Shown in pieces: positions 2,260 to 32,033 of a stretch of DNA of 41,384 nt. The translations under genes and the position numbers were made by a program. Position 1 is the first letter of the stretch. The number at the start of each line of letters is the position of its first letter. The DNA is from Candidatus Solibacter sp. (GTDB taxonomy: Bacteria; Acidobacteriota; Terriglobia; Bryobacterales; Bryobacteraceae): the NCBI GenBank assembly GCA_025361425.1, contig JANYAH010000048.1:1-41384 (forward strand). The letters are read 5' to 3'. The notes beneath the pieces were generated by a model. The model made no database searches and had not been told where the DNA came from. It saw nothing but the letters and a program-made list of their open reading frames with translations.

Positions 2260-3222
2260 TTAGCCTGTACGCGCATTGATGTATGCACAAAAGGTCGACT
2301 CCAGAAATGCTCTGAGCGAACTTGGAACCCTCGCACGTGTTCCGATCACCGCCATGCCGTTCGTGGGGGACAACGTTACGTTCAGCTTGGGAACACCCGC
2401 GCAGCCCGGAAACAACGCGGAGGCACCCTGGTGAACGGACTCGCAAAACTTGACCAAAAACCAAAAGACGTATTTTCCGCGGACGAGAGTTCTGTAAACG
2501 TTCCCCTGCTCGAATTCGGCCATTATCGGAGTTATTTCCACGCCTGGATCGAAGGTAATCTTGCATCGGTCATGAATGTACAACGATACGTTCCCTTTTC
2601 CGCTTGGCGTTGGATTGCATTGAAGACGGCCCTCTACGAAGACAAAAAGGTCACGCATCAGGATGTCATTCAAGTTCGGCCTCTCTCCTCGTCTCCTCCA
2701 ATGAACAATCCAGGTCATGATTGGGACCATCTTGCGGAGAAATACTTCGAGTTCTTTCTCAAACAGACTCGCTACGGCATCTAGCGCCTTGTGATCAGCA
2801 ACTGCGAAGCCATACAGCTCAGTGAGCAGCCGTCTGCAGACCGCCTTCTTTACCACGTCGTTTTCGATTGAATAACCATTCGTCACATATATGTTCCTGT
2901 CCAAGATGAGTCGCTCCGGAATAATGTCGGACAAATCTCTATCTACGAAGAAACAGATACGAGACTTCGGGAAGCGTCGCCAATCAATACTCGAGTGGAT
3001 TCGATAAACTTGATCCTTATTGCCAGCAGGCCAAAGTTCGACATCCCACTCGTCCGGCAGCATATGGTCGATAAAGCCACGATAGAAACACGGGTCTTCC
3101 TTACCCTCGACAAAGGCGTAAACAACACTAGCTCCCTTCGAGTAGCGAGCAAGAAACTCATGGTAGCTCGCTAGTTTGCTGCCGAGCGCAGCCAAATGAA
3201 CAGCAAGCATCGACATAGACAC
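2260..3222 (-). CDS. ariB: DUF4435 TOPRIM-type effector, AriB-like (PARIS)
   Basis: This 320-residue protein carries the DUF4435/TOPRIM core. FVEGKEDPCFY holds the predicted catalytic Glu39, and FFVDRDL holds the Asp94/Asp96 pair, followed by GYSIENDVV. In PARIS, AriB is the nuclease effector held by AriA and released on phage anti-restriction triggers; it cleaves host tRNA. Function here is inferred from those motifs and from the neighbour. The start used is GTG at 3222, with AAGGA six bases upstream; in-frame ATGs two and four codons later are alternatives. It follows the ATPase gene by 17 bases, so the two are very likely co-transcribed. Composition is AT-richer than the flanks, which fits acquisition by transfer. 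It could also belong to a DUF4435 pair outside PARIS. Confidence 0.8.
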   Translation of the reverse strand: MSMSMLAVHLAALGSKLASYHEFLARYSKGASVVYAFVEGKEDPCFYRGFIDHMLPDEWDVELWPAGNKDQVYRIHSSIDWRRFPKSRICFFVDRDLSDIIPERLILDRNIYVTNGYSIENDVVKKAVCRRLLTELYGFAVADHKALDAVASLFEKELEVFLRKMVPIMTWIVHWRRRGERPNLNDILMRDLFVFVEGRLQCNPTPSGKGNVSLYIHDRCKITFDPGVEITPIMAEFEQGNVYRTLVRGKYVFWFLVKFCESVHQGASALFPGCAGVPKLNVTLSPTNGMAVIGTRARVPSSLRAFLESTFCAYINARTG

Positions 3223-3239
3223 TCCAGGTCCTTGTGGGA

Positions 3240-4601
3240 CTAAACGACAAACTCTCCGAGGCCATGAGCGTACTTCCTTAGTCCATTGTCATAAATGAAT
3301 GGAGAGTGAGTCACCGCTACAAGACCCATGCAAAAACTGGCATTCCTAATGTCAACGAGGAATTTCCTCTGCCACGGAACCGAGAGAGACAGCTCAGGCT
3401 CGTCGATTAAGACGAAGTACCTATTCCCGCCCGAGAGGTACAGATGGCTGAACAAGGAGACAATCTGCTTTTCGCCCGAAGATAAGTGTTGAAGCTTGAT
3501 TTCCTTGGATGGATTCTTGTCGTTCTTGGACCGAATAGTAAAACTGAAATTCGAGATGTCATATTTGAACTCCTTATCCACCATGTATTCATTGCAGACC
3601 GCGCAGAAACGCGTTATTTGAGACTCTTTAGCCTCGAGATCTTTTTGAAAAGCCATCAGTTTGGTGAAGTAATGGCAAATGACCTTGGTGTGTTCGCTCT
3701 GTTGTCCGCTTGTCTTTACAGCTTTTATAAGTTCTCTCAGGTGTTGTTTGTTTTTTGAAGATAAAATGTGTTCCTGAATTCTATTCAAGATGTTATCAAT
3801 GGTTTGGTCATCAGCCTCTTTGATCGCGTTCAAGTCCACAGTCGTATATTGCTCTTCAACGATATCGCCTAGATAGCCGAACGTCAGATTATTTAGACTC
3901 TCCCTGGCGAACTTGTTGAGCTGAGATAGTGTCTCGTTGATTGCGGTGTCCACGTCCTTCATCCCGAATTCAATCAACTCCACGTAAGCTTGATCGCCTC
4001 GCCGTGAGGTCAGAAGTTCGCGTCGGCTCTTGAGTTCTCGGTCGTCGAGACCCTTGAATATAAGATTCAGTTCGTGCTCGATTCTTCTGTATGTTGGCAA
4101 GAAAAGAATTTGAACGTCCAGCGATTCTTTGATAGCATCAAAAGTCTGCCTCAGTGCTTCCTTTTTTTTACCCGGCTGATCACGAGCGACATCTAAGTCT
4201 CGCAATAGGTATTCAAGGGGAACTCCATATTCATGACAGAGCATCTCCAGCTCACGTGTGCCGAGGTGCCCCTCCCGCTCTTCCATTAACGAGAGAACTC
4301 TGTGCCTGATCGATAGAGGTAGGCGGTGGAGAACACGGGGATCGATATCCTGAATAGGTCGGCTTAGATCCGAAGAACGCAGTCTGTAGGTCTTTTGTCC
4401 AAGCGTTATCGAGACCTCTTCAAAGTCATACTTCACCATCGAACTCCACTGCCCGGAGAGCATATAATAGAACAGATTCAGGACGGTGGTCTTGCCAGCG
4501 CCATTCTCTCCAACTAGAATCAGCGTATTGTCTACAAATCGTAAGTCGACATGTCTGTAGCCATGCAGTTTCTTGATCTCAAATCGTGTGATTGGGTTCA
4601 T
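3240..4601 (-). CDS. ariA: ABC-type AAA ATPase, AriA-like (PARIS)
   Basis: A 453-residue SMC/RecF-like ATPase. Walker A is GENGAGKTT (Lys37), the ABC signature is LSSGEKQ at about 373-379, Walker B is LIDEPELSLS (Asp400/Glu401), and a switch histidine lies in AVTHSPF (about 432). Between them is a long charged, coiled-coil-like insert. This architecture, plus an adjacent DUF4435 gene, is that of AriA, the sensor ATPase of PARIS, which forms a large assembly sequestering AriB. Unlike OLD/GajA proteins, it has no fused C-terminal TOPRIM domain; that function is in the next gene. The start is ATG at 4601, without a clear Shine-Dalgarno sequence but just below a possible promoter. All ATPase motifs are intact, so it appears functional. 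Confidence 0.82.
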   Translation of the reverse strand: MNPITRFEIKKLHGYRHVDLRFVDNTLILVGENGAGKTTVLNLFYYMLSGQWSSMVKYDFEEVSITLGQKTYRLRSSDLSRPIQDIDPRVLHRLPLSIRHRVLSLMEEREGHLGTRELEMLCHEYGVPLEYLLRDLDVARDQPGKKKEALRQTFDAIKESLDVQILFLPTYRRIEHELNLIFKGLDDRELKSRRELLTSRRGDQAYVELIEFGMKDVDTAINETLSQLNKFARESLNNLTFGYLGDIVEEQYTTVDLNAIKEADDQTIDNILNRIQEHILSSKNKQHLRELIKAVKTSGQQSEHTKVICHYFTKLMAFQKDLEAKESQITRFCAVCNEYMVDKEFKYDISNFSFTIRSKNDKNPSKEIKLQHLSSGEKQIVSLFSHLYLSGGNRYFVLIDEPELSLSVPWQRKFLVDIRNASFCMGLVAVTHSPFIYDNGLRKYAHGLGEFVV

Positions 4602-5776: not shown

Positions 5777-6112
5777 ATGCCCAATCACCTCCGGGCTTAC
5801 AAAGCAAGCGTCTTTCAAGCTCTGGCGCATCCCACGCGCATTGCCATCGTCGAAATCTTGCGCCACGGCGAGCTTTCCGCCGGCGCCCTGCAGGCCCGGC
5901 TCGGCATTGAGCAGGCCAACCTCTCCCAGCACCTCACCATCTTGCGCAGCCGCCAGATCGTGGTCAACCGCAAGGGCGGTAATCAGGTGTTCTATTCCTT
6001 GCCCAATCCGGTCCTGGGCGAGGTGCTCGACATCATGCGCCATTATTGCCAGACGAATCTCAACCAGGCCATCCAGATGATGGGCGAAATGAATCGCGAG
6101 GCGCAGGGTTGA
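5777..6112 (+). CDS. ArsR/HTH_5-family transcriptional regulator
   Basis: The 111-residue protein from the ATG at 5777 is a compact winged-helix regulator: FQALAHPTRIAIVEIL, recognition region ANLSQHLTILRSRQIV, and wing KGGNQVFYSL. The ArsR metal site in the recognition helix (the CxC of ELCVCDL) is absent; the equivalent here is ELSAGAL, and only one Cys remains (RHYC). Metal sensing of the classical type is therefore unlikely. Its TGA overlaps the ATG of the first complex gene (TGATG), so it is the first gene of the Ehr operon and is translationally coupled to it. It probably controls that operon; the signal is unknown. The frame is open upstream into the STGPR gene, so the start is chosen by family length. 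Confidence 0.85.
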   Translation: MPNHLRAYKASVFQALAHPTRIAIVEILRHGELSAGALQARLGIEQANLSQHLTILRSRQIVVNRKGGNQVFYSLPNPVLGEVLDIMRHYCQTNLNQAIQMMGEMNREAQG

Positions 6113-8145
6113 TGGGCTCGCCCGACCCGTTCCTCGCAGCCGGATTGGCTTCGTTCTTCTTAGGTGCCGTCTCCGGACTCGCCACCTGGAAACGCCCGGC
6201 CACCGCCCGGATTGTGGCATTCGCCTTTGCCGTGCTCGGCAGTCTGCTGCTGGCAGTGGCTTCCTGTCTCGCCCTCGCCCGCCCCAGCAGCGCGACCTGG
6301 AGTCTGCCGCTGGTCACGCTCTTCCAATGCACCGTGCGGCTCGATCCGCTGTCGGCCTGGTTTACCCTCACCCTGGCGATTCTGGCGTTGGCGGTCTCCG
6401 TCTACTCCTTCGGCTACCTGCGTCCCCTGGAGCGCACCCGCAATTTGGGAGCGCTGGGCTTTTTCTACAACGCCCTGCTGCTTGGCCTGGCCCTGGTCTT
6501 CACGGCCGCCAACGCGTTCTTCTTCCTCTCCGCCTGGGAAGTGATGGCGGTTTCTGCCTTCTGCCTGGTCGCGTTCGAACACGAGAAAGCCGAAACCCGT
6601 AGCGCGGCCGTCGTCTACCTCATCATGTCCCACGCGGGAACCGTCATGATGCTCGCCGCCTTCCTGCTGCTGGCCGCGTTCGCCGGCAGCACGGATTTTG
6701 CCAGCTTCCATCTGCTGGCATCGAAGCTTCCTCCCGGCGAGCAGGGCGCCGTCTTCCTCCTGTTCTTCGCCGGATTCGGCGTCAAGGCCGGCATTGTGCC
6801 GCTGCACATCTGGCTGCCCGACGCCCACCCCGTGGCCCCTAGCAACGTCTCGGCGCTCATGTCGGGCATCGTCATCAAGTGTGGGATCTATGGGATGGCT
6901 CGCGTCTTCTTCGACTTCTTCGGCCCGCCGCCCTTGTGGACCGGAACCGTGGTTCTCGCCGTGGGCGTGGTCACGGCGTTGGTGGGCGTTCTGTACGCGC
7001 TTCAGGAGCACGACCTCAAGCGCCTCCTGGCCTACCACAGCATCGAAAACATCGGCATCATCGTCATGGGTTTCGGCGCCGCGTTGATGTTCCGTACTCT
7101 GGGGCATCTCAATCTGGCGGCAATGGCCATCATCGGCGCCCTGTACCACACCGTGAACCACGCCATTTTCAAGGGTCTGCTGTTTCTGGCCGCCGGCAGC
7201 GTGGTGCAGAGCGTCCGCACCAGGAACATGGAAGAGATGGGCGGCCTGATCCGCCGCATGCCCGGCACCGCCCTCTTCTTCCTCGTCGGCGCCATCGCCA
7301 TCTCCGGCCTGCCGCCCTTGAACGGATTCGTCAGCGAGTGGCTCACCTATCAGGCGCTGCTCGCCGGCTTTGGCACCACGCACAGCCTCACACGGATGAT
7401 GTTCCCGATTGCGGGGGCGCTCCTCGCCTTGACCGCCGCGCTGGCCGCGGCCTGTTTTGTGAAAGCTTTTGGAATCCCCTTTCTGGCCTTGCCGCGCAGC
7501 GAAGCGGCGGCCAACGCGCGGGAAACCGCGCCTGAAATGCAATACGCCATGGCTCTATTGGCCGCCGCGTGCTTCGTGCTGGGTCTGGGCGCCACCTGGA
7601 TTCTTCCGGTGTTTGACCCCATCACGCAGCAGGCCTTGGGCGTGCAGGTCAGCCAATCGTTAGTCGCCCATGGTTTTGCCCTGCAGGCGGGCACCGCGCA
7701 GAGTGGCACCGTCTCTCCCGCGGGAATCGCGCTGGTGTTCCTCGCGCTCGTGGGCACCGCGGCATTTCTGGTCAACCGGCGCCTGCGCCGCGCCCGCGTT
7801 GCCACCGGGCCCGCCTGGGATTGCGGCCTTCCCGGGCTCACCTCCGATAACGAATACACCGCTACCGCCTTCTCCAAGCCGCTGCGATTGATCTTTAGCG
7901 CCTTCTACCGGCCGAACCGCGAGATTCGCCCGGAGTACGATGTCTCGCCCTACTACCCCAGCGCCATCCGCTTTGAAAGCGGCATCGAGCCCACCTTCGA
8001 GAAACACATCTACGGCCCGCTCAAAGACTGGGTCTTTGGGCTCTCGCGCCGGATGCGCGCCATTCAGGCCGGCAGCATCCACGCATACCTGGCGTATATC
8101 TTTGTCACGCTGATCGTGCTTCTGCTCTTCGGAGTGCGCGAATGA
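6112..8145 (+). CDS. HyfB/HycC-like (NuoL-type) antiporter subunit of Ehr complex
   Basis: A 677-residue integral membrane protein of the Mrp/NuoL proton-pump family. The proton-pathway residues are recognisable: Glu143 in SAWEVMAV, Lys225 in GFGVKAGIVPLHIWLPDAHP and Lys256 in the following helix, then LKRLLAYHSIENIG and the LNGFVSEWL loop. In group 4 hydrogenases and their relatives this subunit couples electron transfer to ion translocation across the cytoplasmic membrane. The ATG at 6112 overlaps the regulator's stop. Its TGA overlaps the next ATG (ATGA at 8142). The C-terminal part, with PNREIRPEYDVSPYYPS and a last transmembrane helix, is typical of HyfB rather than NuoL. Confidence 0.9.
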   Translation: MGSPDPFLAAGLASFFLGAVSGLATWKRPATARIVAFAFAVLGSLLLAVASCLALARPSSATWSLPLVTLFQCTVRLDPLSAWFTLTLAILALAVSVYSFGYLRPLERTRNLGALGFFYNALLLGLALVFTAANAFFFLSAWEVMAVSAFCLVAFEHEKAETRSAAVVYLIMSHAGTVMMLAAFLLLAAFAGSTDFASFHLLASKLPPGEQGAVFLLFFAGFGVKAGIVPLHIWLPDAHPVAPSNVSALMSGIVIKCGIYGMARVFFDFFGPPPLWTGTVVLAVGVVTALVGVLYALQEHDLKRLLAYHSIENIGIIVMGFGAALMFRTLGHLNLAAMAIIGALYHTVNHAIFKGLLFLAAGSVVQSVRTRNMEEMGGLIRRMPGTALFFLVGAIAISGLPPLNGFVSEWLTYQALLAGFGTTHSLTRMMFPIAGALLALTAALAAACFVKAFGIPFLALPRSEAAANARETAPEMQYAMALLAAACFVLGLGATWILPVFDPITQQALGVQVSQSLVAHGFALQAGTAQSGTVSPAGIALVFLALVGTAAFLVNRRLRRARVATGPAWDCGLPGLTSDNEYTATAFSKPLRLIFSAFYRPNREIRPEYDVSPYYPSAIRFESGIEPTFEKHIYGPLKDWVFGLSRRMRAIQAGSIHAYLAYIFVTLIVLLLFGVRE

Positions 8146-9083
8146 TAGCCGTATTCCTCACCGCCGTCGTGCAGTTGCTGCTGTTGTTGACGGTGGCTCC
8201 GCTGGTTGGCGGCCTAATCAAAACGCTCAAGGCGAGGCTTCAGATTCGCCGCGGACCCGGCATTCTGCAGCCCTACCGGGACCTCCTCAAGCTGTTTCGC
8301 AAAGGCATGGTCCTGCCCGGCACGGCCTCCTGGGTCTTCACCGCTACGCCCTACGTCGTGTTTGCCGCCACTGCCATCGCGGGCCTGATGATCCCCATGA
8401 TTTCCGCCAAGGCGCCGCTCGGCCTGTTCGGCGGCGTGCTGGCCGTGGTGTACCTGCTCGGGCTGGGCCGCTTCTTTCTCGCCCTCGCCGGCTTGGATAC
8501 CGGCAGTTCCTTCGGCGGCCTCGGCAGCAGCCGTGAAATGACCATCGCCGCCCTCGCCGAACCCGCCATGATGCTGGCCGTGTTTACGGTGGCCATCGGC
8601 GCCAATTCCACCAGCCTTTCCGAAATCGCCAAAGTGGCTACCTCCACTACCTGGCATTTCCTCGCGCCCGCCCAAATGCTGGCTTTCGCCGCCATGTTTT
8701 TGGTGCTCATCGCGGAGACCGGCAGAATTCCCGTCGACAACCCCGCTACCCATCTGGAGTTGACCATGATCCACGAGGCCATGATTCTGGAGTACTCCGG
8801 ACCCTACCTGGGCCTCATCGAATGGGGCGCGTCCATCAAACAACTATTGCTGATGACCCTGCTCATCAACGCCTTCCTGCCCTTCGGCCTTCAGTCGAAA
8901 TGGTCGCTCGGCGGCGTGCTCGTCAGCCTGGCCTACCTCCTCTTGAAGCTGCTGGTGCTGGCTGTTTCCATCGTCCTGGTGGAAACCACCAATGCCAAGA
9001 TGCGGTTCTTCCGCGTTCCAGACCTACTCGCCATGGCATTCACGTTGGCGGCGCTTGGCCTCGTGTCCACGTTCCTGTTTTGA
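8142..9083 (+). CDS. HyfC/HycD-like (NuoH-type) membrane subunit of Ehr complex
   Basis: A 313-residue membrane protein of the NuoH/HycD family, which anchors the hydrophilic module to the antiporter-like subunits. Family signs are IRRGPGILQPYRDLLKLF near residue 36, the central AEPAMML region, and AETGRIPVDNPATHLE followed by MIHEAMILEYSGP, the loop that faces the large subunit. It starts within the stop of the preceding gene (ATGA), implying translational coupling. Length fits HyfC/HycD. Confidence 0.92.
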   Translation: MIAVFLTAVVQLLLLLTVAPLVGGLIKTLKARLQIRRGPGILQPYRDLLKLFRKGMVLPGTASWVFTATPYVVFAATAIAGLMIPMISAKAPLGLFGGVLAVVYLLGLGRFFLALAGLDTGSSFGGLGSSREMTIAALAEPAMMLAVFTVAIGANSTSLSEIAKVATSTTWHFLAPAQMLAFAAMFLVLIAETGRIPVDNPATHLELTMIHEAMILEYSGPYLGLIEWGASIKQLLLMTLLINAFLPFGLQSKWSLGGVLVSLAYLLLKLLVLAVSIVLVETTNAKMRFFRVPDLLAMAFTLAALGLVSTFLF

Positions 9084-9089
9084 GACCCG

Positions 9090-9776
9090 ATGCATACTTT
9101 ACAAGATCCCGAATTCGGCAACAAGATGGTCACCCTGATGGCTGCGCTCGTGCTCGTGCTGCAGATCGCCATGGTGGCGCAGCGATGGATTGTGACCAGC
9201 ATCCGGATCTTCGCCGCTCAGTCCTTTTTATTGGCCGCCATCGCCAACACCATCGCCTATTACAATCACGCCCCGCACATTTACGCCGCCGCGGCCCTGA
9301 CCTTGCTGGCTAAGGGCATCCTCGTCCCCATCGTGCTAGAGCGCCTCGTGGCGCGGATCGGGATTCGTCAGGAGATCAAGCCCATTCTCAACGTTCCGCT
9401 CTCCATCGTGATCTCGGGCGGCCTGACGCTGGTGGGTTACGTCCTCGCCGAACCGTTCTATCGTCCGGACGAAGCCCCGGGCGCCGCCACCTTGGGCCAC
9501 AACGCGCTGGCCGTGGCGATTTCACTCTTCCTGATCGGTTTTTTCATGATGATCAACCGGCGGAATGCTCTGACTCAGGTGCTCGCCTTATTGTGCCTGG
9601 AAAACGGTTTGTTCCTGGCCGCCATTTCCCTGACTTACGGAATGCCGCTGATTGTCGAACTAGGCGTCCTGTTCGATGTCCTGGTGGCCGTGATGGTCCT
9701 CGGAATTCTGGTCTATCGCATTCGTGAGACCTTCGAGTCCGTCGATGTGAGCCGCATGCGGAGACTGCGCGGATGA
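9090..9776 (+). CDS. HyfE-like membrane subunit of Ehr complex
   Basis: A 228-residue hydrophobic protein with about six to seven helices. The second half (LIGFFMMINRRNALTQVLALLCLENGLFL, shown here only as its pattern of a basic pair between helices) matches the NuoK-like portion of HyfE. The gene sits six bases after the NuoH-like gene and overlaps the next by ATGA. HyfE is part of the membrane arm of hydrogenase-4-type and Ehr complexes. There is no separate HyfD gene in this operon, as in other Ehr clusters known to me. Confidence 0.85.
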   Translation: MHTLQDPEFGNKMVTLMAALVLVLQIAMVAQRWIVTSIRIFAAQSFLLAAIANTIAYYNHAPHIYAAAALTLLAKGILVPIVLERLVARIGIRQEIKPILNVPLSIVISGGLTLVGYVLAEPFYRPDEAPGAATLGHNALAVAISLFLIGFFMMINRRNALTQVLALLCLENGLFLAAISLTYGMPLIVELGVLFDVLVAVMVLGILVYRIRETFESVDVSRMRRLRG

Positions 9777-11263
9777 TCCTGGCTCTTCTTTTGGCGATTC
9801 CCCTGGCCGCGTGCGCGGTGTCGGCCGTGGCGCGCCGGCGCTCCGTACTGGAGGCCGTCAACGTCACCGCTTTCGCCCTCACGTTTCTGCTGGCTCTCGG
9901 CGTGGCGTCTCAAGTGCTCCGCTCTGGCTCCATCTCCCTGTGGAACGGTTTCCTTTACGCCGATTCGCTCAGCGCTTTGGTCATCCTGCTGAACGCGTCG
10001 GTGGCCCTGGTGTGCTCGGTTTATGCCGTCGGCTACCTCCGCGAAGACGAACGCAGCGGCGCCCTCGATGACGATGGGGGGACCAATACCCCAAGTTTCA
10101 AGCTGCGGAAATACTACAGCCTGACACCGCTGCTGGTGTTTGCCATGCTGCTGGTCACTCTGGCGAATAACCTCGGCGTCATGTGGGCGGCCATTGAACT
10201 GACCACCCTCGCCTCCGTCTTCCTGGTCACCTTTTATGGCAATGTGACGTCGCTCGAAGCTGCCTGGAAATACGCCATGATCGGTGGCGTAGGCCTCTCG
10301 ATGGCGCTGTTCGGCACCATCCTCACCTACTATGCGGGCCACAGGCTCCCTGGTTCCGAGGGCCTGGCCGGTTTGAATTGGTCCATCCTGGTGGGCCAGG
10401 CGGCGCAACTGGACAAGACCAGCATGCGGATGGCATTCATTTTGGTGTTGCTCGGCTACGGTACCAAAGCCGGCCTCGCGCCCATGCACACCTGGAAACC
10501 GGATGCCTACAGCGAAGCGCCGGTGCCCTCGGCCGCCATTCTCTCCGCCGCCATGTTGAACTGCGCCGTCTACGGATTGATCCGGTTCTACGTCCTCACC
10601 AGCCGGTGTCTGGGCGCGGAGTATCCCGGAAACCTGCTGCTGCTGCTCGGTCTCTTTTCCATGGGGATCGCGGTCCCGTTCGTTCTGGTCCAGAAGAACT
10701 TCCGCCGCATGCTGGCCTATTCCACCATCGACCAGGCGGGCATGATGATTACCGCTCTGGGCATCGGCGGCCAACTCGCCGCGTTTGCGCTGATGTTGCA
10801 TATGACGTTTCACACGGTGGCGAAATCGCTGCTCTTCCTTTCCGCCGGCAATATTTATCAATGTTTCAAAACCGACCTGTTCCAGAAGCTCAAGGGCGGC
10901 GTGCTCCGCGTACTCCCGCTGACGGGCGCCGCCTTCTGCCTGGGTACGATGGCGATTATCGGGATGCCGCCGTTCAGCCTGTTTCAGAGTGAATTCCTCA
11001 TGATCCGTGCCGCTTTCGGTACCGGCCACTTCCTGGTGGGCGCCCTCTTCATCCTGTTTGGACTCGGCGTGTTCACTGGCGTCACGCTGCATGTCAGCGG
11101 CATGCTTCTCGGCACCTCGGAGGAACCCCGGGCCGCTTGGCATCCATGGCGCGATTCGCCCATTGTGATCCTGGCCGTCCTCCTGATTGCGATCGGCTTC
11201 TGGCTGCCCGCGTCGCTGTTGGAACTCGTTCAACGCGCGGCCCTTGTGGTGAGTGGAGAGTGA
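9773..11263 (+). CDS. HyfF-like (NuoN/NuoM-type) antiporter subunit of Ehr complex
   Basis: A 496-residue proton-pump family membrane protein, the second antiporter-like subunit of the complex. Visible key residues are Glu142 in WAAIELTTLAS, Lys232 in GYGTKAGLAPMHTWKPDAYS and the loop NFRRMLAYSTIDQAGMM. The HYF-type feature AYSEAPVPSAAILSAAM is preserved. Two antiporter-like subunits (HyfB and HyfF) indicate that the complex may move more ions per electron pair than single-antiporter types; this is inference. It overlaps the HyfE-like gene by ATGA. A 100-bp gap containing a dispersed-repeat-like sequence follows, unlike the other tight junctions. Confidence 0.9.
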   Translation: MILALLLAIPLAACAVSAVARRRSVLEAVNVTAFALTFLLALGVASQVLRSGSISLWNGFLYADSLSALVILLNASVALVCSVYAVGYLREDERSGALDDDGGTNTPSFKLRKYYSLTPLLVFAMLLVTLANNLGVMWAAIELTTLASVFLVTFYGNVTSLEAAWKYAMIGGVGLSMALFGTILTYYAGHRLPGSEGLAGLNWSILVGQAAQLDKTSMRMAFILVLLGYGTKAGLAPMHTWKPDAYSEAPVPSAAILSAAMLNCAVYGLIRFYVLTSRCLGAEYPGNLLLLLGLFSMGIAVPFVLVQKNFRRMLAYSTIDQAGMMITALGIGGQLAAFALMLHMTFHTVAKSLLFLSAGNIYQCFKTDLFQKLKGGVLRVLPLTGAAFCLGTMAIIGMPPFSLFQSEFLMIRAAFGTGHFLVGALFILFGLGVFTGVTLHVSGMLLGTSEEPRAAWHPWRDSPIVILAVLLIAIGFWLPASLLELVQRAALVVSGE

Positions 11264-11300
11264 AATTGGGGCATAGTAGAGTACAACTCCAGGGCTCTTG

Positions 11301-11345
11301 GTGGGGCGGACGCCCTCGTCCGCGCGCGACCCCCTGGTCGCGCTG
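11301..11345 (+). repeat. Dispersed REP-like GC-rich element inside the Ehr operon
   Basis: The 45-bp stretch between the HyfF- and HyfG-like genes starts GTGGGGCGGACGCCC and ends near CCCCTGGTCGCG. It contains complementary halves (GGGCGT/ACGCCC-type, GGACG/CGTCC) and resembles the inverted ends of the larger element at 35325-35464, which also start GTGGGGCGG. It is probably one end of a dispersed palindromic repeat that entered the operon. The large-subunit frame is open through it, but the natural start lies after it. Confidence 0.6.
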
Positions 11346-11363
11346 TTGCTCGGTAAACTGAAC

Positions 11364-12947
11364 ATGGATCTCTTCGAAGAGTTGCGTGACAAATTTCCGC
11401 TCCTGGTCAGCGCCGCGCAAGCGCCGCCTCAGGTATCCCACAACCAGGTCTCCATCGCTCTCCGCGGGCCGGACGTGCGGCCGCTCGCGGAGCACTTGCA
11501 GTCGGCGTATCAGTCCCGTTTGGTGGCGGTGTTCGCCGAAGATCGCGTTGCCGCCGAAAGCGTCTTCTATAACTACTACGTTTTCGAACAGCCCGCGGAA
11601 CCCTGCTATCTGATCTTGCAGGCGCCCATTGCCGCGGACCAGCCGCGATTCCCTTCACTCGCCGCCGGCTTGCCCGCGGTGAACTGGCAGGAACGCGAGA
11701 TCCAGGACTGGTTTGGCCTCGAAGCCACCGGTCATCCCAATCCCCGCCGCGTCGCCCTCCACGATAACTGGCCCGACGTGCATCCCCTGCGTAAGAGTTT
11801 TCCGTTGCGCCAGGTCTTGCCGCCGTTCGAAGGCGAGCGCCACGTCTATCGCCCCACCCTGGGGGAGGGAGTCTTCCAGATTCCCGTCGGCCCCGTGCAT
11901 GCCGGCATCATCGAGCCCGGCCATTTCAATTTCGCGGTCGCGGGTGAGCCGATTCTATATCTGCAACTGCGCATGTTCTATACCCACAAGGGCACCGAGA
12001 AGCTGTTCGAAGACATGCCCATCCATCGAGCTGTATTCCTGGCGGAGAGCATCTCGGGCGATTCCGCTTTTTCGCACGGAACCGCATTCTGCCAGGCTAT
12101 AGAGAACGCGTCCGATACCGAAGTTCCCCAGCGCGCCCGCGTCATGCGGACCATCCTGCTGGAATTGGAGCGCGTCTGCAACCACATCGGCGATATTGGG
12201 GCAATTTCGACCGACGTCGGCTTTATGGTGGCCAACGCCCATGCCAGCCGGCTGCGTGAGATGGTGGTGCGCCTGAATGAGGGCTTGACGGGGAGCCGGT
12301 GGCTCCGCGGCATGGTGTGCGTCGGTGGAGTGCGCCGCACATGGTCTTCCGCCCAACGCGATCTGCTGCGCGATACCGTAAACCAGGTGGAGCGGGAATT
12401 TGATTCTCTCGTCGCCCTCGTTCAGTCTTCCGATTCCACCCGCGACCGCCTGGAACAGACCGGTATTCTGCTTCCCGAAACCGCCAAGGTCCTGGGCATC
12501 GTCGGGGTTGCCGGCCGCGCTTCCGGCGTCGATCTGGACGTCCGCCGCGACCACCCGTACGCCGCCTACGAACGCTACCCCTTCCAGGTGCCGGTGTATC
12601 GGGCGGGAGACGTCTTGCACCGCATGCTGGTGCGCGTCGATGAGGTGAAGCAGTCCTTTGCCATCCTGCGAGCCGCCGCCGATGACCTGCCGGAAGGCCC
12701 CCACTGTGCTCCGCTGCAACCCGTGCCGCCCGGCCGTTGCGCCCTCAGCGCCGTCGAAGGCTGGCGCGGTGAGATTCTGCATTGGGTGCGTACCGCGGAC
12801 AACAATCGCCTGGAGCGCTGTAAGATCAAGGACCCATCGGTGAATAATTGGGCCGCCATTGTGGAGGCGGTGCAGGGCAACATCGTCGCGGATTTTCCGG
12901 TGATCAACAAGAGTTTCAATCTCTCCTATTCGGGTACGGACCGCTGA
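11364..12947 (+). CDS. HyfG/HycE-like large subunit lacking [NiFe] ligands (Ehr)
   Basis: This 527-residue protein has a NuoC-like N-terminal domain (WQEREIQDWFGLEATGHPNP, about 108-127) fused to a NuoD/HycE-like domain (PVGPVHAGIIEPGHFNF, about 174-190). In true group 4 hydrogenases the first metal motif reads ERxCGxC; here the aligned residues are ESISGDSAFSH (228-238), with Ser231 and Ser234 in place of the cysteines. The C-terminal DPCxxC-TDR motif is NLSYSGTDR, with Ser521 and Gly524. All four Ni-Fe cysteines are gone, so it cannot bind the hydrogenase metal site. The protein also ends at TDR, with no processed extension. The ATG at 11364 is chosen over in-frame upstream codons lying in the repeat. 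The redox partner is unknown. Confidence 0.9.
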   Translation: MDLFEELRDKFPLLVSAAQAPPQVSHNQVSIALRGPDVRPLAEHLQSAYQSRLVAVFAEDRVAAESVFYNYYVFEQPAEPCYLILQAPIAADQPRFPSLAAGLPAVNWQEREIQDWFGLEATGHPNPRRVALHDNWPDVHPLRKSFPLRQVLPPFEGERHVYRPTLGEGVFQIPVGPVHAGIIEPGHFNFAVAGEPILYLQLRMFYTHKGTEKLFEDMPIHRAVFLAESISGDSAFSHGTAFCQAIENASDTEVPQRARVMRTILLELERVCNHIGDIGAISTDVGFMVANAHASRLREMVVRLNEGLTGSRWLRGMVCVGGVRRTWSSAQRDLLRDTVNQVEREFDSLVALVQSSDSTRDRLEQTGILLPETAKVLGIVGVAGRASGVDLDVRRDHPYAAYERYPFQVPVYRAGDVLHRMLVRVDEVKQSFAILRAAADDLPEGPHCAPLQPVPPGRCALSAVEGWRGEILHWVRTADNNRLERCKIKDPSVNNWAAIVEAVQGNIVADFPVINKSFNLSYSGTDR

Positions 12948-12950
12948 ACC

Positions 12951-13799
12951 ATGTTTAAGATACTCCAAAAGGCCCTCGCCACCGGCATCGCCACCGTCGC
13001 GTACCCGGACGTGCCCGCCGTGGTCTCCCCGCATTTCCGCGGCCGGCCTGAATTTGATTTCGCATCCTGGCGCGACGCCCGCCCCGCCGCCGAGGTCTGT
13101 CCCACGGGAGCCATCCTGGTGGGACAGGCGCTTTCGCCGGCCAACCGCCGCGTGACCGTCGATTACGGCCTGTGCGTCTTCTGCGGCCAGTGCGCCGATG
13201 TTTCACCCGATGGCGCGGTGCGCGTCACCACGGAGTTTGAACTCGCCACTCACAATCGCGCCAGGCTGATTCGCGCGGCGGACTACAGCCTGAATGCCGA
13301 TGGTACTCACCAGCGTTTGATTGCCGAGTATGAGGCCGAGGCCACGGCGGAAGAGGCGGGTGGCAAAGTCAGCGAAGCAATCCGCAACACGCTGGGGCGC
13401 TCGCTCGCCATCCGCCAGGTGGACGCCGGTTCGTGCAACGGGTGCGAAATGGAAATAGTGGCGCTCAATAATCCCATTCACGATATCGAGCGTTTCGGCA
13501 TTCAATTTGTGGCCTCTCCGCGGCATGCCGACATGCTGCTGGTCACCGGGCCAGTCACGCGCAACATGGAGCTGGCGTTACAGAAGACCTATGCCGCGAC
13601 CCCGGACCCAAAGGTGATCGTGGCCGTGGGTGCATGCGGCATCAGCGGCGGCATTTTCGGTACGAATTATGCCTCCCGGGGTGGCGTCGATGCCACCATC
13701 CCGGTGGATGTCTACATCCCCGGATGCCCGCCGCGTCCCGAAGCGCTGCTCTACGGCATCCTGCTCGCCGTCGGCAGGCTGGCGGAGAAAGTGCGGTAG
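12951..13799 (+). CDS. Fused ferredoxin (HyfH-like) and NuoB-like (HyfI) small subunit of Ehr
   Basis: A 282-residue fusion. Residues about 1-95 are a degenerate HycF/HyfH ferredoxin: Cys50 (EVCPTGA) and Cys75/78/81 (CVFCGQC) would bind one [4Fe-4S] cluster. The first CxxCxxC is missing (Trp40, Ala43, Ala46) and the last Cys is Ser85, so the second cluster is lost in a self-consistent way. Residues about 145-282 are the NuoB/HycG domain with Cys162/165 (SCNGC), Cys229 (GACGIS) and Cys259 (PGCPPRPE), enough for the N2-type cluster. The subunit would carry electrons through two clusters to the large subunit at the membrane surface. It starts three bases after the large-subunit stop and ends the operon. 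Confidence 0.88.
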   Translation: MFKILQKALATGIATVAYPDVPAVVSPHFRGRPEFDFASWRDARPAAEVCPTGAILVGQALSPANRRVTVDYGLCVFCGQCADVSPDGAVRVTTEFELATHNRARLIRAADYSLNADGTHQRLIAEYEAEATAEEAGGKVSEAIRNTLGRSLAIRQVDAGSCNGCEMEIVALNNPIHDIERFGIQFVASPRHADMLLVTGPVTRNMELALQKTYAATPDPKVIVAVGACGISGGIFGTNYASRGGVDATIPVDVYIPGCPPRPEALLYGILLAVGRLAEKVR

Positions 13800-15269: not shown

Positions 15270-15758
15270 ATGTTCACATTCCGCGCAGTGGGGGTTCGAG
15301 TGGGTAAGTTCTTTCGGGATTCAGGACACCTGATCCGGCCGGCCATCGTGCTGCTCGCCGGCCTGGGTCTCTTTATGGTGATTCGCGGCGCCGTGGTTCC
15401 CAAGGGATTCGGTCAGTACGGCCACTACCGCCCAGGCGCGCTGGCCGCCATCCGCCAACATCCGGTTGTCTACGCCGGGCAAGCCACCTGCGTCCTGTGC
15501 CACGAAGAGGAAGGCAAGGTCCGCGCCACCGGCAAACATGCCCACGTGGCCTGCGAAACGTGTCACGGACCGCTCGCCAAGCATGCCGACGACCCGGCGG
15601 CGAATGTCCCCACACTGCCGGCCGTCGCCACCCTCTGCGCCCGGTGCCACGAAAAGGACACCGCCAAACCCAAGACCTTTCCGCAGGTGGTCACCGCCGA
15701 GCACTCCGGCGGCATGGCCTGCAATGACTGCCACAAGCCGCATAATCCGCACCTCTGA
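15270..15758 (+). CDS. Membrane-anchored tetraheme c-type cytochrome
   Basis: A 162-residue protein with an uncleaved-looking membrane anchor (about 22-40) and four CxxCH heme-binding motifs at 74-78 (CVLCH), 95-99 (CETCH), 123-127 (CARCH) and 151-155 (CNDCH). The domain would face the periplasm. The heme spacing resembles small NapC/Nrf-type and class III-like multiheme cytochromes. It is followed 17 bases later by an FeS protein and then by an NrfD-type protein. In such modules the cytochrome passes electrons between the quinone-linked membrane part and periplasmic partners. The start at 15270 is the first ATG that includes the anchor. Confidence 0.88.
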   Translation: MFTFRAVGVRVGKFFRDSGHLIRPAIVLLAGLGLFMVIRGAVVPKGFGQYGHYRPGALAAIRQHPVVYAGQATCVLCHEEEGKVRATGKHAHVACETCHGPLAKHADDPAANVPTLPAVATLCARCHEKDTAKPKTFPQVVTAEHSGGMACNDCHKPHNPHL

Positions 15759-15775
15759 GGGACAAGAGCAGACAT

Positions 15776-16519
15776 ATGGAAATCACCCGTCGAGACATGT
15801 TGAGCGTGGGCGGCAAGCTCCTCATGATTGCCAGCGTGGGCGCAACCTTTGAACAGATCACCGGCGCCGAACCGCCGCCCGATACCTACCGCATGGCCGA
15901 CCACTGGTGGGGCATGATTATCGATATCGATAAGTGCATCGGTTGCGGTAACTGCGTGCGCGCCTGCTCCGATGAAAACCAGGTCCCGAAGGACTATTTC
16001 CGCACCTGGGTGGAGCGTTATGAAGTCCCCGAAGGCTACGTAAACCCCCGCGTGAGTTCCCCACAGGGAGCCATCAACGGCTTTCCGCCCTCCCAACAGA
16101 CCAGCCTCAAGAGCTTTTTCGTTCCCAAGCTCTGCAACCACTGCGCGGATTCCCCCTGCGTGCAGGTCTGCCCGGTGGGCGCCACCTTCGTCAGCCCGGA
16201 CGGTGTGGTGCTGGTGGACAAGGACTACTGCCTGGGCTGCCGCTACTGCGTGCAGGCCTGCCCCTACGGCTGCCGCTATCTGCACCCCGAAACCGAAACC
16301 GTGGACAAGTGCACCCTCTGCTACCACCGCATTACGCAGGGCTTGACCACGGCCTGTTGCGAGAATTGCCCCACCGGCGCGCGCCAACTGGTGGATTTCA
16401 AGGACCCCAAGGACCCGGTGCATGAGTTTCTGCGCGAAAACAAAGTCGCGGTGTTGAAGCCGAATATGGCAACGGAAGCCAAGGTCTATTACAAGAACCT
16501 CGACGGCTCGGTGCGATAG
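15776..16519 (+). CDS. Tat-exported 4x[4Fe-4S] ferredoxin-like subunit (NrfC/HybA/DmsB type)
   Basis: A 247-residue iron-sulfur protein. The twin-arginine-like start TRRDML (residues 4-9) and a hydrophobic stretch suggest export by Tat. Four cysteine groups are visible: CIGCGNCVRAC (54-64), CNHCADSPCVQVCP, CLGCRYCVQACP and CTLC with a later CCENCP. This fits the four-cluster electron-transfer subunit of complex iron-sulfur molybdoenzyme (CISM) families. Its usual partners are an NrfD-type membrane protein, present next, and a molybdopterin catalytic subunit, absent here. The gene is 17 bases after the cytochrome and 13 before the NrfD gene. Confidence 0.9.
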   Translation: MEITRRDMLSVGGKLLMIASVGATFEQITGAEPPPDTYRMADHWWGMIIDIDKCIGCGNCVRACSDENQVPKDYFRTWVERYEVPEGYVNPRVSSPQGAINGFPPSQQTSLKSFFVPKLCNHCADSPCVQVCPVGATFVSPDGVVLVDKDYCLGCRYCVQACPYGCRYLHPETETVDKCTLCYHRITQGLTTACCENCPTGARQLVDFKDPKDPVHEFLRENKVAVLKPNMATEAKVYYKNLDGSVR

Positions 16520-16532
16520 AAGGAGCGAAACG

Positions 16533-17702
16533 ATGATTCCTGGCGTAGACGGTTTCATGTACCCCAACGAGGTGGAGTTGCAGTGGAGCGTGCTGATCGT
16601 GCTCTACCCGTTTGTCACCGGCCTGGTGGCCGGAGCCTTCATCCTGGCGTCGTTGGAGCGCGTCTTCAAAGTGGAAGCTGTGCGCCCTACCTACCGGCTG
16701 GCGCTGCTCACCGCGCTCTCGTTCCTACTGGTGGCGCCGCTGCCGCTGCAACTGCACCTGGGCCACCCCGAACGCTCCTTCGAAATGTACACCACGCCGC
16801 ATCGTTCCTCGGCCATGGCCATGTTCGGCTTCATTTACCTGTGGTACCTCACGGTGGTGCTCTTACTGGAAATCTGGCTGGAGTATCGCAGCGATATCGT
16901 GCGCCTGGCGCAATCCTCCAAGGGCTTCCCGCGGCTGGTCTATCAGGCACTCACCCTGGGTTCGATGAACGTCAGTCCGGCGGCTCGCGCGATTGACGAT
17001 AAGGTGGGCTACGCGGTCACAGTGATCGGCATTCCGTCGGCATTTCTGCTGCACGGATACGTGGGCTTCATCTTCGGTTCCATCAAGGCCAACCCTTGGT
17101 GGAGCACGCCGCTGATGCCGATCGTGTTCCTGTTTTCCGCCATGGTGTCGGGCATCGCGGCGGTTCTGCTGCTCTATATGGCCTCCATGAAGCTGAAGAA
17201 ATGGCCGATCGACATGCGCTGCGTGGACACCATCGCCAAGTATCTGTTCTACGCATTCGTGATCGCTTTCAGCCTGGAAATGCTGGACTTGATCCACCGC
17301 ACCTACGAGAGCGACGAAAGCTTCCGGAGCCTGGATTTCATGGTACACACGCGCCTGTGGTACTCCCATGTCGTCCTGCAGATTGGCGTGGGTACGTTGA
17401 TTCCGCTGGCGCTGCTGGCAGCCAACCAACTCTGGAAATTCAGCGAGGCGAAGCGGCGCGTGATGTATGTGACGGCGTGTTCGCTGACCATGATCGGGAT
17501 CTTCGCCATGCGCTGGAACGTAGTCATCGGCGGCCAGTTATTTTCCAAAAGCTTTCTGGGCTATACCACTTACAAAGTGGAGTTAGTCACCCGCGAAGGC
17601 TTGCTCGCGGCAATCGCGCTGATGCTGCTGCCCTTCGTCATCTTTTTCGTGCTGGTAAAAATTCTGCCCCCCTGGCAGGAGACCGAGGCTCATAAGGCCT
17701 GA
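16533..17702 (+). CDS. NrfD/PsrC-family quinone-interacting membrane subunit
   Basis: A 389-residue polytopic membrane protein, within the long-form range of the NrfD/PsrC family. The first helix (VLIVLYPFVTGLVAGAF) and the LHLGHPERSFEMYTTPHRSS loop are typical, and the protein ends in a short charged cytoplasmic tail. The family oxidises or reduces menaquinol at the membrane and hands electrons to the FeS partner; it binds no heme itself. A good AAGGAG Shine-Dalgarno sequence precedes the ATG at 16533. Together with the two preceding genes it forms a cytochrome-FeS-NrfD unit comparable to Qrc/Nrf-like modules. Confidence 0.88.
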   Translation: MIPGVDGFMYPNEVELQWSVLIVLYPFVTGLVAGAFILASLERVFKVEAVRPTYRLALLTALSFLLVAPLPLQLHLGHPERSFEMYTTPHRSSAMAMFGFIYLWYLTVVLLLEIWLEYRSDIVRLAQSSKGFPRLVYQALTLGSMNVSPAARAIDDKVGYAVTVIGIPSAFLLHGYVGFIFGSIKANPWWSTPLMPIVFLFSAMVSGIAAVLLLYMASMKLKKWPIDMRCVDTIAKYLFYAFVIAFSLEMLDLIHRTYESDESFRSLDFMVHTRLWYSHVVLQIGVGTLIPLALLAANQLWKFSEAKRRVMYVTACSLTMIGIFAMRWNVVIGGQLFSKSFLGYTTYKVELVTREGLLAAIALMLLPFVIFFVLVKILPPWQETEAHKA

Positions 17703-31016: not shown

Positions 31017-31061
31017 AAATCGCCTATGTTATTCTTGGGAAAGAAAGGCTGGCCAGCCGCT

Positions 31062-32033
31062 ATGCTGCCCTCCTCGGCTAAGCTGTTGATTCGTTGCGCC
31101 GTCGGGATTTGCCTGGGCTGTGTCATCTGGGGACAGGCAAGCCTGGAAGTCCGGACGAAACCTGGCGAGAAGCTGGAGTCGCGCCCACGCCCTAACATCC
31201 GCGTGGACAGTACGCTGGTGCTGATCCCGGTCACCGTCACCGACCCCTTGAACCGTTTTGTCACGGGACTGGAAAAGGAGAATTTCAAAGTGCTGGAGGA
31301 TAAGCTACCGCAGGAGATTACTCAGTTCTCCAGCGAGGACGCGCCGCTCTCTGTGGGCGTGGTCTTCGATTGCAGCGGCAGCATGGGCAGTAAGCTCGAC
31401 AAATCCCGGCAGGCAGTGGCGCAGTTTTTCAAGCTGGCCAATCCGGAGGACGAGTTTTTCCTGGTTCAATTCAACGATTCAGCCAACCTGATTCAGCCCT
31501 TCACGCGGAACCTGGAGGAGATCCAGAACAAGCTCGCCTTTACCCAGTCCAAGGGCAGAACCGCGCTGCTGGACGCGGTCTACATGGCGGTACATGAAAT
31601 GAAAAAAGCCAAGAATCCGCGTAAGGCGCTCCTGTTGATCTCCGATGGCGGCGATAACAGCAGCCGCTACAGCGAGGCGGAAATCAAGAAGCTGGTAAAG
31701 GAAGCCGACGTGCAGATTTACGCCATCGGCATCTACGAATCCGCCGGGGCGCGCAACCGTACGCCGGAAGAGACTTCGGGACCCGCGCTGCTCACCGAAA
31801 TCGCCGAGCAGACCGGGGGGCGGCAGTACCAGGTGGACAATTTGAATGAGTTGCCGGACGTGGCGGCAAAAATCGGCGTCGAACTGCGCAACCAGTACAT
31901 ACTGGGCTACTCCCCGAAGAACCTGAGCCGCGACGGCAAGTACCGCAAGGTCCAGGTCAAGCTGGTGCAACCGCACGGCATGCCGCTTTTGCGGCCATTT
32001 TGGAAACAAGGCTACTATGCGCCGGCACAATAA
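31062..32033 (+). CDS. Exported acidobacterial VWFA-domain protein, copy 1
   Basis: A 323-residue protein if started at the ATG at 31062; an in-frame codon at 31026 is an alternative. It has a signal-like segment (IRCAVGICLGCVIWGQA) and a von Willebrand A domain. The MIDAS metal motif is complete (FDCSGSMGSKLD), with FFLVQFNDSANLI and a later TGGRQYQVDNL. This matches the TIGR03436 'VWFA-related Acidobacterial domain' group, whose members are exported and act in unknown protein-protein contacts. It is the most diverged of three tandem copies. It overlaps the next gene by 17 bases. Confidence 0.88.
   Translation: MLPSSAKLLIRCAVGICLGCVIWGQASLEVRTKPGEKLESRPRPNIRVDSTLVLIPVTVTDPLNRFVTGLEKENFKVLEDKLPQEITQFSSEDAPLSVGVVFDCSGSMGSKLDKSRQAVAQFFKLANPEDEFFLVQFNDSANLIQPFTRNLEEIQNKLAFTQSKGRTALLDAVYMAVHEMKKAKNPRKALLLISDGGDNSSRYSEAEIKKLVKEADVQIYAIGIYESAGARNRTPEETSGPALLTEIAEQTGGRQYQVDNLNELPDVAAKIGVELRNQYILGYSPKNLSRDGKYRKVQVKLVQPHGMPLLRPFWKQGYYAPAQ

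Follow-up and report, generated by a model that had tools for sequence, protein, structure and literature searches.

The window, a 41,384-nucleotide stretch of DNA from Candidatus Solibacter sp., carries an intact operon of hyfB, hyfC, hyfE, hyfF, hyfG and a fused hyfH+hyfI gene (6112-13799), and the complex that it specifies is almost certainly a member of the known family of energy-converting-hydrogenase-related (Ehr) complexes. The sequences point to a working Ehr complex in which the Ni-Fe cysteines appear to have been replaced by a conserved polar, acidic pocket that gained Asp233 and Asp284. We favour, with a probability of about 0.5 for the reading as a whole, a ferredoxin-fed redox ion pump that acts on a substrate held in this pocket.

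The operon and its genes

Open reading frames and family profiles bear out the gene set given in the preliminary description, HyfB-C-E-F-G-(H/I), except that H and I form one fused gene (Table 1). HyfE also matches PRK11492, at 112.6 bits and under the cut-off of 136. The stop codon of the regulator gene overlaps the hyfB start (TGATG), and an ArsR-like gene lies directly upstream of the Ehr operon at 15 distinct loci, the window counted; ORFs of the relatives were drawn from stop to stop, which places their starts and the gaps between them only roughly. Rv0081 is presumably an ArsR-type regulator too. A regulator together with an Ehr gene set is also found in the M. tuberculosis complex (Rv0081-Rv0087), according to the available parts of PMC6728331 and PMC6901956. 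The ArsR gene, the gain of Asp233 and Asp284, the lost HyfH cluster and the relatives without N2 all go beyond the preliminary description.

Table 1. Features of the Ehr operon and its upstream regulator (window coordinates).
Feature	Coordinates	Strand	Match or remark
ArsR/SmtB-family regulator	5777..6112	+	NCBIfam HTH_metalloreg 84.4 bits, cut-off 55
HyfB, antiporter-like (NuoL type)	6112..8145	+	NCBIfam PRK06521 719.5 bits, cut-off 667
HyfC/HycD, NuoH-type membrane anchor	8142..9083	+	PF00146 157.9 bits
HyfE, NuoK-type membrane subunit	9090..9776	+	PF00420 30.7 bits, cut-off 26.1
HyfF, antiporter-like subunit	9773..11263	+	PF00361 160.8 bits
HyfG/EhrL, fused NuoC+NuoD-type large subunit	11364 (ATG)..12947	+	PF00329 and PF00346
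Former L1 metal motif I-S-G-D-S (residues 230-234)	12051..12065	+	C-G-x-C in hydrogenases
Former L2 motif N-L-S-Y-S-G-T-D-R (519-527)	12918..12944	+	HycE: D-P-C-Y-S-C-T-D-R
HyfH+HyfI fusion (NuoI-type + NuoB-type domains)	12951..13799	+	PF01058 and Fer4 models

Both antiporter-type subunits keep the Glu and Lys residues first ascribed to them: alignment places E143, K225, K256 and K354 in HyfB, and HyfF has E142, K232 and K351 in 20/20 aligned rows and E407 in 19/20. The HyfC glutamates E192, E206, E212, E217 and E281 are likewise present. Comparison with two same-genus copies gives dN/dS of about 0.12 (0.054/0.453 and 0.060/0.496), a selection result that rejects a pseudogene. It is extremely improbable that the complex is a non-functional hydrogenase remnant: the cysteines and one cluster have been lost, but the genes are open and under selection, SGDS at 231-234 occurs in all 19 rows with at least 64% identity to the window (window included, one genome twice), and the coupling residues are conserved. 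Selection, the invariant motif and the intact antiporter residues thus argue for a working complex.

The large subunit and its former Ni-Fe site

Residues C241, C244, C531 and C534 of HycE align to S231, S234, S521 and G524 of the window HyfG, which agrees with the initial claim that all four Ni-Fe cysteines are gone; with every ligand missing the complex is not a hydrogenase. Nor is there a hydrogenase C-terminal extension, as had been noted, HyfG stopping at TDR where HycE carries it. The C-terminal motif is NLSYSGTDR in 18 of the 19 near rows (at least 64% identity) and SLSYSGTDR in one. A search for CxxC elsewhere in HyfG found none formed by its seven cysteines (82, 244, 273, 320, 449, 460 and 487 in the 528-letter count, one above the numbering used for other residues). 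The best PDB match is HycE (7z0s_E, E 4.6e-83), and an AlphaFold model (pLDDT 92.0; loop 178-185 not confident), used for fold comparison, matches HycE with Z 50.5 and rmsd 1.9 over 519 residues and complex I subunit D with Z up to 47.0 over about 355 residues.

The Ehr of the window lies beside, and in both trees outside, the group-4 [NiFe] hydrogenases. It falls in a 58-row branch (support 95; 57 rows S-G, one CASA) together with Nitrospira moscoviensis and N. defluvii (L074, L076), and the starred sets that hold it in the second tree (3, 13 and 16 rows) are all S-G; the deepest forks are weaker, with support of 83 for the 72-row Ehr side and 88 for the hydrogenase side. The first tree was built without L039 (from the same contig as L046), L075, L079 and L116, and the second without 24 further rows; E. 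coli NuoCD was the complex I comparator. Subunit set and branch together uphold the initial assignment to Ehr. The window shares its set of subunits, the antiporter type among them, and the absence of both CxxC motifs with the Ehr of Nitrospira, Geobacter, Sulfobacillus, ammonia-oxidising archaea and the M. tuberculosis complex; of these, our sequence comparison covers Nitrospira and the ammonia-oxidising archaea. The window differs from Nitrospira Ehr in its HyfH+HyfI fusion with a single HyfH cluster, whereas no HyfH was seen in the Nitrospira stretches examined.

Two sister group-4 [NiFe] hydrogenases, L034 (in a same-genus genome) and L125, share the architecture of the window, including the one-cluster H+I fusion, but have all four cysteines. 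The Hyc (formate hydrogenlyase) and Hyf systems of E. coli have the same kinds of genes, and HyfG finds its best match there in both sequence and fold; relative to them the window lacks the Ni-Fe cysteines, the C-terminal extension and any HycB or FDH gene, and has one HyfH cluster fewer. HypD was not found in the Ehr-bearing genomes G058 (100% complete) and G029 (87%), so the complex does not need Ni-Fe maturation.

Among 95 large-subunit rows, 77 have S231-G232, 15 have all four cysteines and three show other patterns. Alignment columns were compared between two groups, 69 Ehr rows chosen by S231-G232 and 14 sister NiFe rows chosen by CCCC, so that these columns themselves prove nothing. HycE, HyfG, L063b, L035, L036 and L114 stand outside both groups, as do four Nitrospirota rows (L100, L105, L117 and L123) in which S231, S521 and G524 are combined with V/T233 and G284, and which the first tree places on its hydrogenase side (support 88). 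Exceptional rows are L114 (CASA), L035 and L036 (SSSE) and L080, with Cys at 234. Asp233 is present in 69/69 Ehr rows, where the sister rows have V or A; position 284 is Asp in 68/69 and Gly in 14/14 sister rows; position 519 is Asn in 59/69 against Glu in 14/14; and position 490 is Asp in 61/69 against Ser in 14/14. S521 and G524 each occur in 67/69 Ehr rows. Retained throughout or nearly so are E184 and H274 (68/69 each) and R385, E427 and R468 (69/69 each), the equivalents of HycE E193, H284, R395, E437 and R478, whose roles we take from the accessible part of PMC9474812; E193, the proton-transfer glutamate of group-4 [NiFe] hydrogenase, is thus present in the window as E184.

A possible, though doubtful, reading of this pocket is that quinone occupies the former Ni-Fe cavity in the manner of complex I, making the complex a small ferredoxin:quinone pump. 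The complex I core has homologous subunits, the fold matches that of subunit D, and Asp284 matches the Asp of NuoCD where the sister hydrogenases have Gly; the operon has no NADH module. We take certain NuoCD residues to be the equivalents of Nqo4 His38 and Tyr87, and at these positions the window has Ile183 and Gly232, invariant in 56 aligned sequences, with Glu184 retained instead. His38 and Tyr87 are the quinone headgroup residues of Nqo4 in the part of PMC7684303 available, by which source the CxxC spacing of the N2 cysteines in the window is also that of MBH, not the adjacent arrangement of complex I.

The same portion of PMC7684303 describes the MBS sulfane-sulfur reductase as another group-4 relative without a Ni-Fe site, which would favour a polysulfide reductase. 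This is very unlikely for the window: two of the four cysteines survive in MBS and none in the window, and MBS lacks the equivalent of MbhL E21 where the window has Glu184, and has a three-cysteine proximal cluster where the window has four N2 ligands with CxxC spacing.

Iron-sulfur clusters and candidate partners

The NuoI-type (HyfH) domain of the fusion has one remaining [4Fe-4S] site (C50, C75, C78 and C81) and, to judge from its sequence, one of its two clusters is lost; these clusters, with their ligands, are conventionally those called N6a and N6b. The NuoB-type (HyfI) domain has intact N2 ligands (C162, C165, C229 and C259), spaced CxxC (CNGC). All eight cysteines are invariant in 28 aligned sequences, and the N2 ligands are intact in 76/82 rows; L050 lacks the CP before its cluster motif. 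All 50 of the listed fold matches of the HyfHI model are NuoB/HycG-type chains, so the fold of the HyfH part rests on sequence.

A formate dehydrogenase-linked complex (FDH-Ehr, or a formate hydrogenlyase) has very little probability here. Formate hydrogenlyase is the nearest solved relative, higher levels of Ehr subunits on formate are reported for Geobacter in the available part of PMC7894505, and an FDH-Ehr is proposed in that of PMC6349859; however, no FdhF-like protein occurs in 92 loci or the window, which rejects an FDH partner by neighbourhood. Fdh-alpha is above the cut-off (666 bits) in 2/61 genomes, neither of them Ehr-bearing. Ten of the 61 relatives, those carrying the S-G-D type, count here as Ehr genomes (G026, whose two copies are divergent, is uncounted); six, including G000 (95% complete), have no Fdh-alpha match above 200 bits, and the best match in the other four, near 600 bits, falls short of the cut-off. 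In the usual order of the clusters, an FDH module would lie on the side of the HyfH cluster that is missing here. This narrows the choice of electron partner, to which the preliminary description gave no name: with an FDH partner unlikely, the wiring left is one ferredoxin-type cluster plus N2.

Other partner candidates were sought. PF01558 (oxoacid:ferredoxin oxidoreductase) has four matches in G000, but it does not discriminate because it is near-universal (57/61 genomes, with or without Ehr) and not found in Ehr-bearing G029. A conserved flanking partner was rejected, the largest cluster among 657 flank ORFs having 27 members at 16 loci; one scanned member (L080:10656-12191) is a histidine kinase. 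Pfam matches for 37 + 2 flank proteins are to transporters, kinases, porins, transposase, Hsp90 and radical SAM proteins, with many unmatched. The cytochrome c, FeS and NrfD genes of the window are not beside Ehr in the stretches examined, apart from one weak FeS match at L093.

Three distant Ehr, two of them from candidate-phyla bacteria, have N2 positions of DCDD (L088), TCDD (L120) and SEGD (L122), and no CxxCxxCxxxC protein occurs in their loci. All three retain E184, S231, D233, H274, R468, N519 and S521 and nearly all antiporter and HyfC residues, the deviations being G284 and M273 in L122, Ala524 in L120 and Lys at HyfF 407 in L088. These complexes thus retain most of the pocket, with no core redox centre to be seen, so some Ehr may use the pocket for chemistry other than redox; a limited search of the open literature found no description of N2-less Ehr.

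These relatives allow a redox-independent ion transporter, in which the pocket would bind or convert a small non-redox molecule or ion, such as CO2 or bicarbonate, coupled to ion flow. The DAB inorganic carbon pump already shows non-redox chemistry coupled to a subunit of the NuoL kind (PMC13144422, in part), although its catalytic subunit is different and G000 has no DabA. The Ehr genes of L088 and L122 lie after atpD-atpC; PF20393 ('putative carbonic anhydrase') is downstream in L122 and a similar fragment is present in L118; four Ehr loci contain or adjoin SulP transporters (L047, L049, L065 and L071, those of L049 and L071 called by similarity to L047 and L065, not by Pfam); and DabA and a DabB-like gene precede the sister hydrogenase locus L064. 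We nonetheless regard such a transporter as unlikely. The window complex retains N2 and one further cluster, each N2-less form has a deviation in pocket or arm, no locus protein, that of L122 included, has a full beta-carbonic-anhydrase motif, the flank pattern was noticed post hoc, and the N2-less forms may simply have switched function. The SulP genes are of unlike subfamilies, L047 and L049 with other SulP, L065 alone and L071 with DabA-adjacent SulP (support 93, long branch), and SulP is absent from G000, so SulP as an obligatory partner was rejected. SulP lies within 2 kb of DabA in eight Ehr-less relatives (G038, G040-G043, G045, G046 and G048). DabA occurs in 1/10 Ehr genomes (G029, where the end of a contig truncates it) and 21/51 others, a distribution that follows taxonomy and so proves nothing for Ehr.

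Proposed mechanism and meaning for the Ehr family

For the ferredoxin-fed pump, we infer the donor, the direction of electron flow, the pumping and the regulation as follows. A soluble low-potential donor, most likely a ferredoxin, would reduce the single cluster of the HyfH domain; from there electrons would travel by way of N2, the cluster of the HyfI domain, and reduce a small substrate lodged in the cavity that once held Ni-Fe. The loading of protons at E184, D233, D284, R468 and H274 in the pocket would be relayed along the glutamates of HyfC to the antiporter-like HyfB and HyfF, and these may move H+ or Na+; the pumping role is suggested by the conserved residues. The ArsR-type regulator would control the operon, and the complex would descend from a group-4 hydrogenase whose Ni-Fe site was swapped for the polar, acidic pocket. 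Ehr expression is reported not to have risen with H2 in Nitrospira moscoviensis (PMC12342949, in part). The literature, available in part, yielded no experiment demonstrating pumping or a donor for an Ehr, and Ehr function is called unknown in the parts seen of PMC10284858, PMC12342949 and PMC4378227 and undetermined in that of PMC6728331.

A purely redox role does not explain the three relatives that keep most of the pocket with no visible core redox centre. We give low probability to the wider proposal that Ehr is not fundamentally a redox enzyme, and that the S-G-D / S-Y-S-G pocket serves non-redox chemistry or ion binding coupled to the antiporter arm, with CO2/bicarbonate the one concrete candidate. 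Fe-S clusters would then have been shed stepwise, the stages being one HyfH cluster (window clade), no HyfH (Nitrospira stretches) and no N2 (L088, L120 and L122), while pocket, E-channel and antiporters stayed; if true, Ehr would amount to a machine of the complex I type that runs without electrons.

Ehr complexes are already known and widespread, and the window adds a further member. Their gene sets were found here in nitrifiers, methane-oxidising archaea, ammonia-oxidising archaea and soil Acidobacteria, and are reported from Geobacter (PMC7894505) and the M. tuberculosis complex (PMC6728331, PMC6901956) in the available parts of those papers. The alignment narrows the question to the few positions that separate Ehr from its sister hydrogenases, S231, D233, D284, N519, S521 and G524, and the natural N2-less variants offer a way to tell whether electrons are required by Ehr in the first place.

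The Ehr operon and its place in the family

The genome that carries the energy-converting hydrogenase-related (Ehr) operon comprises 5.3 Mb in 377 contigs (95% complete), and the closest named records to the window are metagenome assemblies of Bryobacterales/Terriglobia (Acidobacteriota). Open reading frames and family models place an ArsR-type regulator gene overlapping the start of hyfB, followed on one strand by hyfC, hyfE, hyfF and hyfG and then by a fused hyfH-hyfI gene; no gap exceeds about 100 bases. HycE of formate hydrogenlyase is the best match of the large subunit HyfG both in sequence and in the fold of its model (Z 50.5, rmsd 1.9, 519 residues). S231, S234, S521 and G524 align with HycE C241, C244, C531 and C534, bearing out the loss of Ni-Fe cysteines claimed in the preliminary description; the missing C-terminal extension is likewise confirmed, as the window chain stops after TDR whereas E. 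coli HycE and HyfG continue beyond it. Three other gene groups of the window are tabulated, of which the first is probably a PARIS-type anti-phage defence pair.

Coordinates of features in the window and in relatives' loci
Location	Source	Feature	Pattern
Window 6112-13799	Candidatus Solibacter sp.	hyfB-C-E-F-G-(H+I) operon	
Window 2260-4601 (minus)	Candidatus Solibacter sp.	DUF4435 protein and AAA ATPase, matching AriB and AriA models	
Window 15270-17702	Candidatus Solibacter sp.	Separate respiratory module: multihaem-type cytochrome c, FeS protein with several Fer4 domains, NrfD membrane protein	
Window 31026-33899	Candidatus Solibacter sp.	Three tandem von Willebrand factor A proteins	
L035:4820-6544	G026, same family	Divergent Ehr-like large subunit	SAKS
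L036:8430-10130	G026, same family	Divergent Ehr-like large subunit	SATE
L064:1-3603	Planctomycetota	DabA (PF10070, 525 bits) and DabB-like gene directly upstream of group-4 hydrogenase operon	
L088:3256-3816	Ca. Magasanikbacteria	N2-less NuoB-type subunit of Ehr operon	DCDD
L120:3259-3804	Ca. Levybacteria	N2-less NuoB-type subunit of Ehr operon	TCDD
L122:2968-3516	Uncultured	N2-less NuoB-type subunit of Ehr operon	SEGD
L093:10205-11305	Chloroflexi	Group-4 hydrogenase; four Ni-Fe cysteines kept, three N2 ligands of NuoB part lost	DCED

With the eight motif columns removed, trees place the window in a branch of 58 rows (support 95) that also holds Verrucomicrobia, Nitrospira and Rokubacteria and consists of 57 rows with S231-G232 and one with CASA; Methanoperedens and Nitrosotalea attach farther out at a weaker fork (support 83). 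Group-4 hydrogenases of Bacillota, Planctomycetota, Chloroflexota and two Acidobacteria stand beside the Ehr branch (support 88), and the window subunit is thus not inside a functional hydrogenase clade. One of these enzymes, L034, comes from a same-genus genome that also carries an Ehr copy. A single origin for all S231-G232 rows is not rejected (p-AU 0.112). Four Nitrospirota rows also without cysteines (L100, L105, L117 and L123) share the hydrogenase-side group (support 88); they have S231, S521 and G524 but V/T233 and G284, possibly reflecting independent or intermediate loss.

Published reports describe Ehr complexes without CxxC or Ni-Fe ligands in Nitrospira (PMC10284858, PMC12342949), ammonia-oxidising archaea (PMC10432482), Sulfobacillus (PMC4378227) and Margulisbacteria (PMC6349859), and Ehr also from Geobacter (PMC7894505) and the M. 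tuberculosis complex (PMC6728331). The window complex therefore belongs to a known kind, loss of the cysteines is usual for an Ehr, and the Ehr-type reading proposed earlier is supported and narrowed.

The former Ni-Fe pocket and the membrane arm

S231-G232 is present in 77 of 95 large-subunit rows (92 loci plus the window, two loci having two rows each and one contig being counted twice), with D233 in 73 of those 77; all four cysteines occur in 15 and other patterns in three. Two divergent subunits of one genome are tabulated. We set 69 Ehr rows against 14 sister hydrogenases. S231-G232 defined the first group and the four cysteines the second, so these columns carry no weight as evidence. 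Other columns switching in Ehr are D233 (69/69), D284 (68/69), S521 and G524 (67/69 each), D490 (61/69) and N519 (59/69). Equivalents of the HycE proton-path residues E193, H284, R395, E437 and R478, as described in PMC9474812, are kept in Ehr. Judged from these alignments, the former Ni-Fe pocket was rebuilt rather than just emptied.

In the membrane arm, HyfB E143, K256 and K354, HyfF E142, K232 and K351, and HyfC E192, E206, E217 and E281 are identical in all aligned rows (19 or 20, with E. coli among them). A single exception each occurs for HyfB K225 (HycC), HyfF E407 (Lys in L088) and HyfC E212 (one undetermined residue).

Electron wiring, maturation and flanking genes

C50, C75, C78 and C81 of the HyfH-HyfI fusion are invariant in 28/28 aligned sequences, and the window and its clade lack the remaining four ligands that a two-cluster ferredoxin would have; therefore one cluster (N6b) is kept whole and one (N6a) lost whole. 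This pattern occurs in 25 rows, including the window and one contig twice, and the window N2 ligands are intact. Such wiring fits a soluble donor more readily than it does an FDH module. The loci contain no FdhF-like protein, and six of ten Ehr genomes, the window's included, gave no Fdh-alpha match above 200 bits; the other four have a match near 600 bits, under the cut-off of 666.

HypD is present in eight of ten genomes with S231-G232-D233 among the 61 relatives; the window's own genome has it, together with two other large-subunit genes above the PF00374 cut-off. Because HypD was not found in two of the ten, G029 (87% complete) and G058 (100% complete), Ni-Fe maturation is not needed by Ehr.

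Counting the window, 15 distinct loci from Acidobacteriota, Rokubacteria, Chloroflexi and Methylomirabilis have an ArsR-like gene immediately upstream of the operon; in six more (L042, L054, L085, L091, L099, L114) it lies elsewhere. Rv0081 of the M. tuberculosis complex is also an ArsR-type regulator. It is reported to adjoin and regulate Ehr-like genes (PMC6901956, PMC6728331).

Some flanks may point towards inorganic carbon. In L047 and L049 a SulP transporter gene separates ArsR from hyfB; L065 has one within its operon, and L071 has one downstream, as does the L064 sister hydrogenase locus in addition to its tabulated DabA and DabB-like genes. A PF20393 putative carbonic anhydrase lies downstream in L122, in which the full beta-type motif was not found, and a fragment resembling it in L118. 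Against this lead count the failure to find SulP or DabA in the window's genome, the unlike kinds of the SulP genes near Ehr and the post hoc recognition of the pattern.

Relatives without the N2 cluster

All four N2 cysteines are present in 76 of 82 small-subunit rows; the exceptions are L110 (PCCC), L035 (CCCD), hydrogenase L093 and the Ehr of three loci, a small sample (L088, L120 and L122) in which Asp mostly stands in for the cysteines. The L120 small subunit is 61% identical to L088, 48% to L122 and 45-51% to other aligned ones, and the fold is therefore kept. No CxxCxxCxxxC protein was found in these three loci. Their large subunits retain E184, S231, D233, H274, R468, N519 and S521, with deviations at M273 and G284 in L122 and Ala524 in L120, and in L088 and L122 the operon comes immediately after atpD-atpC (ATP synthase beta and epsilon). 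Neither an N2-less Ehr nor the one-cluster HyfH-HyfI fusion appears in the portions of the Ehr literature consulted. A sharply defined new pocket, and relatives that keep this pocket without N2, make these complexes worth pursuing.
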